Source of the DNA: a virus
Strand: one strand, 5' to 3'
DNA length: 64,000 nucleotides
Virus record (IMG/VR): IMGVR_UViG_3300021087_000009
Coordinates: 1 to 64,000 of that record
Under the pieces are notes generated by a model. That model searched no databases and was not told the DNA's origin. It saw nothing but the letters and a program-made list of their open reading frames with translations. The translations under genes and the position numbers were made by a program. Positions 32,488 to 32,883 of the stretch are shown piece by piece (within the stretch, counting starts at the first letter, position 1; each line of letters begins with the position of its first letter).

Positions 32488-32528
32488 TAAAAAAGTGCAA
32501 CTTGATTCTGTTGCCAGGTCCAAGTTGC
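32488..32528 (-). terminator. tmRNA terminator
   Basis: Minus-strand stem GCAACTTG/CAAGTTGC (8 bp, 16-nt loop) followed by a T run. It ends the tmRNA coding piece. Confidence 0.75.
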
Positions 32529-32848
32529 CAAAACCCCGAAAAATTATGCCGCTAGGGCAAATTCTTCATTTGTTGGTAACTTCGCTCCGAAATTAACGAA
32601 GGTTACGTTACCGTTTGCTTTAAAGTCAGCAATTATAGTTTTTGAACTAAGTCCAACAACCGCTAGGTTGAGGCCGTCGTGTCTTACGGGCAACTCCACA
32701 GATACTATTAACTTCCAATCGATCCCAGTTCACCCCCGGACTGTATACTTTGCGGAAAATATATACTCCGCGGATGCTCCAAATTTGGTGGAGGTGGCGG
32801 GAGTCGAACCCGCGTCTTGAAAAGCGTTTGCATTGCTTCAACGTTACA
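32497..32848 (-). ncRNA. ssrA: Circularly permuted two-piece tmRNA
   Basis: Reading the minus strand, the 3' (acceptor) piece comes first, with T-arm GCGGG-TTCGACT-CCCGC (32797-32813) and CACCTCC-A-CCA ending at 32786. An intervening segment of about 48 nt follows. The mature 5' end of the coding piece is at 32737, beginning GGGGGTG. GGGGGTG pairs with CACCTCC as the acceptor stem, and TTGGAAG pairs with CTTTTCAA as the P2 helix, so the two pieces fit together. The tag frame at 32544-32618 encodes 24 residues, beginning ANGNVTF and ending NEEFALAA, then TAA. Permutation is the alphaproteobacterial ssrA form. tmRNA rescues stalled ribosomes and tags the nascent peptide for ClpXP. Confidence 0.9.
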
Positions 32849-32854
32849 ATGTTA

Positions 32855-32883
32855 TTTATAACACATATTAATAGTAAGGTCAA
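32855..32883 (-). promoter_or_regulatory. Sigma70-type promoter for tmRNA
   Basis: TTGACC, 17 nt, TATAAA on the minus strand; the start would fall at about 32848, just before the acceptor piece. Confidence 0.8.

Follow-up and report, generated by a model that had tools for sequence, protein, structure and literature searches.

A complete, circularly permuted tmRNA gene lies on the minus strand (32850-32490) of a 64,000-nucleotide stretch of viral DNA (the window), taken from a virus record of 75,251 bases. We consider it quite probable that this gene specifies a functional two-piece tmRNA of the phage, with a tag lengthened by a stem-loop that is translated in frame, and that it would serve trans-translation together with SmpB of the host. 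An earlier note on the same DNA had proposed a phage-encoded, circularly permuted two-piece tmRNA gene, and covariance models, structure and a conserved promoter all support such a gene, with two mature pieces predicted.

The gene was recognised with Rfam models and ARAGORN. Covariance models of permuted alpha tmRNA had been proposed as a check on the reading, which came through well: RF04321 (tmRNA_permuted) gives a full-length match (model positions 1-213) at 32847-32544, with 84.9 bits against a cut-off of 47, and RF01849 (alpha_tmRNA) matches at 32903-32494 with 54.2 bits, above its curated cut-off of 50. ARAGORN reports a permuted tmRNA (tmRNA*) on the minus strand at 32453-32878. Both the full-length RF04321 match and the ARAGORN call agree with the proposed order, in which the coding half comes after an acceptor half carrying T-arm and CCA. 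The parts of the gene are as follows.

32855..32883, minus strand: promoter TTGACC-17 nt-TATAAA(TA), read from the sequence
32786..32850, minus strand: acceptor piece, from the RF04321 and RF01849 alignments and the sequence, its 5' end placed from the promoter position
within 32786..32850, minus strand: 3' strand of P2, from the model alignments
32813-32797, minus strand: T-arm GCGGG-UUCGACU-CCCGC, from the model alignments and the sequence
32796-32790, minus strand: acceptor strand CACCUCC, followed by A73, from the model alignments and the sequence
32788-32786, minus strand: encoded CCA, read from the sequence
32738..32785, minus strand: intervening segment of 48 nt with the hairpin GCGGA...UCCGC, strongly conserved in six aligned viral copies
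32631..32737, minus strand: 5' part of the coding piece, including the 5' strand of P2 and the PK1 region, from the model alignments
32737-32731, minus strand: acceptor strand GGGGGUG, from the model alignments and the sequence
32730-32719, minus strand: D-loop AACUGGGAUCGA, from the model alignments
within 32631..32737, minus strand: resume context UAUAAUU, from the model alignments
32630-32547, minus strand: tag reading frame of 28 codons (84 nt), ADFKANGNVTFVNFGAKLPTNEEFALAA, from ARAGORN, with homologues in five contigs
32575..32612, minus strand: likely stem-loop of 11 bp within the tag frame, spanning codons 7-19 (GNVTFVNFGAKLP), from folding and compensatory pairs
32538..32567, minus strand: predicted P5 helix GAAGAAUUUGCC/GGCAUAAUUUUUC, which contains the final codons of the tag and its stop, from folding
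32546-32544, minus strand: tag stop codon UAA (ADF...ALAA-UAA)
32489..32528, minus strand: 3' hairpin GCAACUUG...ACCUGGCAACAGAA...CAAGUUGC and then a T run, the end of the coding piece and terminator, with 8 of 8 arm positions complementary

Acceptor and P2 pairings between the two halves, as claimed before, can both be drawn. The strands GGGGGUG and CACCUCC read from the sequence as a stem of 7 bp that includes G3-U70, the identity pair for AlaRS, and the P2 pairing of the two halves is placed by the covariance model, with a weak middle part. The distance to the resume codon is 107 nt, compared with about 80-88 in most permuted tmRNAs. A pattern scan with the core of the intervening segment returned the five viral contigs with tag homologues and three chance matches. 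The loop of the 3' hairpin fits the 3' segment conserved in the alpha model; three relatives (L008, L121 and L122) have a separate, GC-rich terminator downstream in its place.

The proposal that the gene has its own sigma70 promoter and terminator is likewise upheld, with the 3' hairpin followed by its T run and with TTGACC-17-TATAAA kept in six of the six members of the long-tag family. The promoter is further supported by the recurrence of its motifs in viral permuted tmRNAs, TAAATA being present upstream in 47 of 92 (8.1 expected), in most cases 72-76 nt ahead of the CCA end, and TTGAC in 51 of 92. The same motifs are nearly absent in bacterial alphas and SAR11 (5 and 1 of 121). Viral permuted tmRNAs thus have in common an upstream promoter TTGAC...TATAAATA which bacterial copies almost never carry. 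The -10 of the tmRNA promoter also fits the T4-like late motif TATAAATA, but the conserved and recurrent TTGAC -35 favours sigma70 over a T4-like late promoter. Directly after the tmRNA terminator is a perfect consensus sigma70 promoter, TTGACA-17-TATAAT (32477-32449, minus strand), facing a gene of unknown function at 32408-31815.

The description of the gene as permuted in the manner of alphaproteobacteria holds only in part. Among the lineage models (alpha, beta and cyanobacterial), the alpha model is the only one matched above its cut-off; the relatives L021, L122 and L008 score 55.9, 55.1 and 54.2 bits with it, and L121 and L123 fall below the cut-off. The beta-type model RF01850 gives 60.7 bits against a cut-off of 84, which was reached by none of 249 sampled genomes either (best 72 bits), and the cyanobacterial model RF01851 gives a partial match of 34.1 bits against 70. 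Permutation, on the other hand, is common to alpha-, beta- and cyano-type tmRNA genes, and the phage T-loop is canonical (GGGUUCGACUCCC), lacking the alpha-type form GGGGGC(G/A)GUACCC of SAR11 and other alphas. A quick tree built from 194 permuted tmRNAs, with uneven support, many weak branches and no beta or cyanobacterial rows, has a branch with the sampled bacterial alphas, SAR11 among them, on one side; the clade of the 28-residue-tag phage tmRNA sits among viral sequences, outside the sampled bacterial groups. Because only the alpha cut-off is exceeded, the T-loop is canonical and the tree position is viral, the gene is, as judged from sequence, a phage lineage of its own to which the alpha type is nearest in model terms. 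A bacterial source was considered and rejected, as the exact D-loop/acceptor pattern occurs in no bacterial genome contig and the tree position is viral.

The tag reads 28 residues (32630-32547, then UAA), not the 24 given in the earlier note. Its frame has a resume codon, a hydrophobic C-terminus and a stop codon placed within the predicted P5. Its description as very long is apt in relation to SAR11, where all 32 sampled tags have 9 residues, and to the phage Mosig, but alphaproteobacterial tags reach 32 residues, and 13 of the 106 alphaproteobacteria sampled outside SAR11 have tags of between 20 and 32. Among 73 distinct viral permuted tags, 17 have at least 20 residues, one of which (L119) is probably false. 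The 28-residue tag is therefore long, yet inside the known range, and a record length is ruled out by the alphaproteobacterial tags. In the tmRNA database, with its 79 phage sequences, 10 residues is the most frequent length across all tags (PMC11915505).

Searches by pattern and by tag through 2.9 million viral contigs revealed five others with homologues of 28-29 residues (L021, L008, L122, L121 and L123). The L021 tag is identical to ADFKANGNVTFVNFGAKLPTNEEFALAA, L008 and L122 have ANLKASGNVTFVNFGAKLPTNDQVFALAA, and L121 and L123 have ANLKASGNVTFVDFKAKLPTNEQVFALAA. Across this family the frame survives a 3-nt indel with no stop, and amino-acid changes are fewer than under random substitution (P 0.004, 0.006 and 0.036 for three non-independent pairs). 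A core, GNVTFVxFxAKLPTN, is conserved and the C-terminal FALAA end is unchanged; tmRNAs with conserved tag, intervening segment and promoter are present in three distinct viral haplotypes. The long tag has no sequence match among 50,697 phage records, and tblastn with the 29- and 22-residue tags found no known isolate with either, a weak negative since the queries are short. The 28-29-residue tag thus appears to be conserved in the five other viral contigs under codon-level constraint, and its make-up looks new.

Codons 7-19 of the tag can be folded as GGUAAC-(GUAAC)-CUUCG-UUAAUUU-CGGAG-(CGAA)-GUUACC. Over 11 pairs in four sequences, L121 shows C-G to U-A exchanges in both stems, amounting to two compensatory changes, one of which alters the amino acid (G to K) with the pair kept; L021 has one broken pair and L122 a U-G pair. 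The fold energy of the 28-residue tag compared with synonymous shuffles gives a z of -4.3 when the boundaries are those picked in hindsight. With phage codon use, the inner region gives -2.45 (L021 -0.4, L121 -1.0), and under a null with the tag's own third-base make-up the energy is not significant; depending on null and family member, the values extend to about -0.5. Because significance changes with the null, we do not claim the stem-loop on energy alone, and we regard a stem-loop within the 28-residue tag as likely, but not proven. P5 with the stop codon follows the stem-loop with its design unchanged, and the same P5 is present in L005, which has a 14-residue tag; within P5 a single compensatory pair is seen, and several cells are unpaired in the relatives. 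Without the stem-loop the tag would be ADFKANTNEEFALAA, an ordinary 15-residue tag. The 28-residue tag apparently reads as a normal tag of ~15 residues with an in-frame stem-loop insert, and would then be long because a small RNA hairpin is translated in frame. A mobile palindromic element was rejected as an explanation, as no second copy of the stem-loop is present within the 64-kb window with up to three mismatches allowed.

A stem-loop is also found inside the tag of a second viral family, with the 22-residue tag ANKRALGFADLTVGMSELRLAA and variants. Its stem has 98.9% of cells paired, compared with at most 40% when slid, and there is one both-side change (A-U to G-C in two sequences) together with several one-side changes; with synonymous shuffles the inner z ranges from -1.4 to -4.0, and is strong for most members. 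Conserved tags of 22-25 residues occur in second-family members L133, L138, L160, L172, L183, L196, L206, L219, L234 and L135. The tag start AN-x-(K/R)-A-(L/S)-G is common to the 22-residue and 28-residue families.

The same record carries virus genes for tail and virion proteins, RNR, ligase, halogenase, PurM, transaldolase and desaturase, and several whose products relate to protein quality or bear on the host.

12436..13035, minus strand: ClpP-type serine peptidase (PF00574 2.9e-27; PDB ClpP 6hwm 7.8e-17)
17337-18032 and 19629-20174, minus strand: PcyX-type bilin reductase and heme oxygenase pair, with a tryptophan halogenase between them
20171..20482, minus strand: ClpS adaptor (PF02617 6e-27; phrog_27368 2e-26)
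20516..22405, minus strand: DnaK (Hsp70) (PF00012 2.2e-269; 53-65% identity to DnaK-annotated and other phage records)
22467..22982, minus strand: Hsp20 small heat shock protein (PF00011 4.9e-16; phrog_432 3e-40)

ClpS, DnaK and Hsp20 stand in a row (20171-22982, minus strand) and, with ClpP at 12436-13035, make up a set of protein-quality genes in this phage. The ClpP-type peptidase has the Ser, His and Asp triad of the ClpP fold aligned in its PDB matches. Its best Pfam and PDB matches are ClpP and its best PHROGs matches are head maturation proteases of ClpP fold, so that a capsid role as a head protease is possible. No SmpB was found in the virus record, which is a fragment, and neither SspB nor Lon was noticed among the proteins examined. 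A link between ClpS and long tags was considered and dropped, since its frequency is similar in long-tag and short-tag phages (4 of 16 and 3 of 20 records respectively, with no enrichment). The phage also encodes a SET-domain protein (30447-30770, minus strand; PF00856 3e-7).

The bilin reductase matches the solved PcyX structure (PDB 5owg, 5.6e-82), with heme oxygenase nearby, and NrdB is closest to HTVC008M and Mosig (62-63%). A PqqA-like precursor peptide of 25 residues, MKWNKPQIAEVSVGLEINCYACAEI (PF08042 3.9e-6), adjoins the tmRNA at 32984-33061 on the plus strand and is followed by a terminator-like hairpin; the L021 record has such a peptide too. Phage PqqA has been reported for Lake Baikal viruses of methylotrophs (PMC7678222). 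The Mosig-like bilin/heme pair, the NrdB affinity to HTVC008M and Mosig, and PqqA as in viruses of methylotrophs are consistent with a host that is either SAR11-like or a methylotroph.

A plausible course of events is that the phage's own sigma70-type promoter drives a precursor transcript, from which host RNase P and 3' processing would free the acceptor and coding pieces, and that these would pair via the acceptor stem and P2. With G3-U70 kept, the molecule would be charged with alanine by host AlaRS and brought to stalled ribosomes by host SmpB, smpB being absent from the record. The ribosome would resume at GCU, adding Ala and then the 28 residues of the tag, whose ALAA terminus is presumably recognised by ClpXP-type proteases, leading to proteolysis. 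Lying between the resume codon and P5 in the tag's frame, the stem-loop of ~39 nt would lengthen a tag of ~15 residues by ~13. The likely benefit would be that ribosomes are kept free and broken proteins cleared in infection, and phage Hsp20, DnaK, ClpS and possibly ClpP may act alongside the tmRNA. The extra tag residues may determine which protease or adaptor is preferred; alternatively, the stem-loop may slow down the ribosome. An earlier suggestion that the phage may retune rescue or tag proteins differently from the host has some circumstantial backing from the phage ClpP and ClpS, but the ALAA degron end is kept.

The gene could alternatively be an ordinary host-derived tmRNA carried by chance, for example after imprecise excision, and now decaying, with the long tag a product of functionless drift. 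Such carriage has precedent in that phages commonly integrate at tmRNA genes, fragments of which occur in prophages (PMC9004378), and bacteria also show long tags sporadically. We consider it highly improbable here; the tRNA-like and coding determinants are all intact, the tag, intervening segment and promoter are conserved in three distinct viral haplotypes, and the gene belongs to a clade among viral sequences, not inside the sampled bacterial groups, with a recurring phage-type promoter.

If instead the gene is functional, as we favour, what the extra tag length does is a separate matter. It might be driven by RNA only, the helix serving folding or ribosome pacing and the extra residues being neutral passengers. 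The compensatory changes, including the G to K replacement in L121 with its pair kept, and the survival of pairs through amino-acid changes in the 22-residue family speak for this, but the frame and most residues are conserved too and the energy evidence is mixed for the 28-residue-tag family, and we think it rather unlikely. It is possible, if still doubtful, that the extra residues are a protein-level signal that changes the fate of tagged proteins (protease, adaptor or decay rate). The conserved core, the fact that this phage also encodes ClpS, ClpP and chaperones, and the extended Mycoplasma tag that co-evolved with Lon (Ge and Karzai 2009, as cited in PMC3985003) are consistent with such a signal; the FALAA end for ClpXP is unchanged, unlike in Mycoplasma as described there, ClpS shows no link to tag length, and SspB and Lon are not among the proteins noticed. 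A broader and distinctly unlikely proposal is that the translated stem-loop between resume codon and P5 is a new module, adding 10-13 residues to tags in at least two phage groups, which together with ClpP and ClpS steers the proteins of stalled ribosomes.

These phage tmRNAs are not plain host copies, as tag length, T-arm and promoter differ consistently from those of the sampled bacteria, and the tag frame may contain an extra RNA helix. If so, this would be a natural case of RNA structure and degradation-tag sequence evolving under joint constraint. It also raises the testable question of why marine phages should carry ribosome rescue of their own along with Clp adaptors and chaperones.

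Set against RF04321 and RF01849, the phage gene gives full-length matches above the curated cut-offs and differs in its canonical T-loop, longer PK1 region, short post-tag segment and long tag. Two-piece tmRNAs of marine phages are already published; the Methylophilales phage Melnitz carries such a gene, and of 133 distinct phage tmRNAs 53 are two-piece, mostly from marine or aquatic sources (PMC9004378). The isolate Mosig EXVC030M, a phage of Pelagibacter (SAR11), has a permuted tmRNA with the 9-residue tag GEDNFALAA. Like Melnitz and Mosig, the present phage is a marine, Kyanoviridae-like myophage with a complete permuted ssrA. Mosig, too, has heme oxygenase and bilin reductase, there side by side, as well as Hsp20 and nrdAB; the present phage differs from Mosig in the neighbourhood of the gene and in a tag of 28 residues with a likely internal stem-loop. 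The long-tag alphaproteobacterial tmRNAs are similar in length, but several have internal ANDN/ANxN-like repeats instead, with a low folding z in one of 13 (L464). In Mycoplasma, an extended tmRNA tag, likewise beyond the usual ~10 residues, co-evolved with Lon (Ge and Karzai 2009; Gur and Sauer 2008; both as cited in PMC3985003); the tags described there end in AFA and switch protease, whereas the phage tag retains ALAA. With Melnitz and Mosig published, the two-piece tmRNA itself is the known part, and it is the make-up of the tag, with its likely in-frame stem-loop, that looks new.
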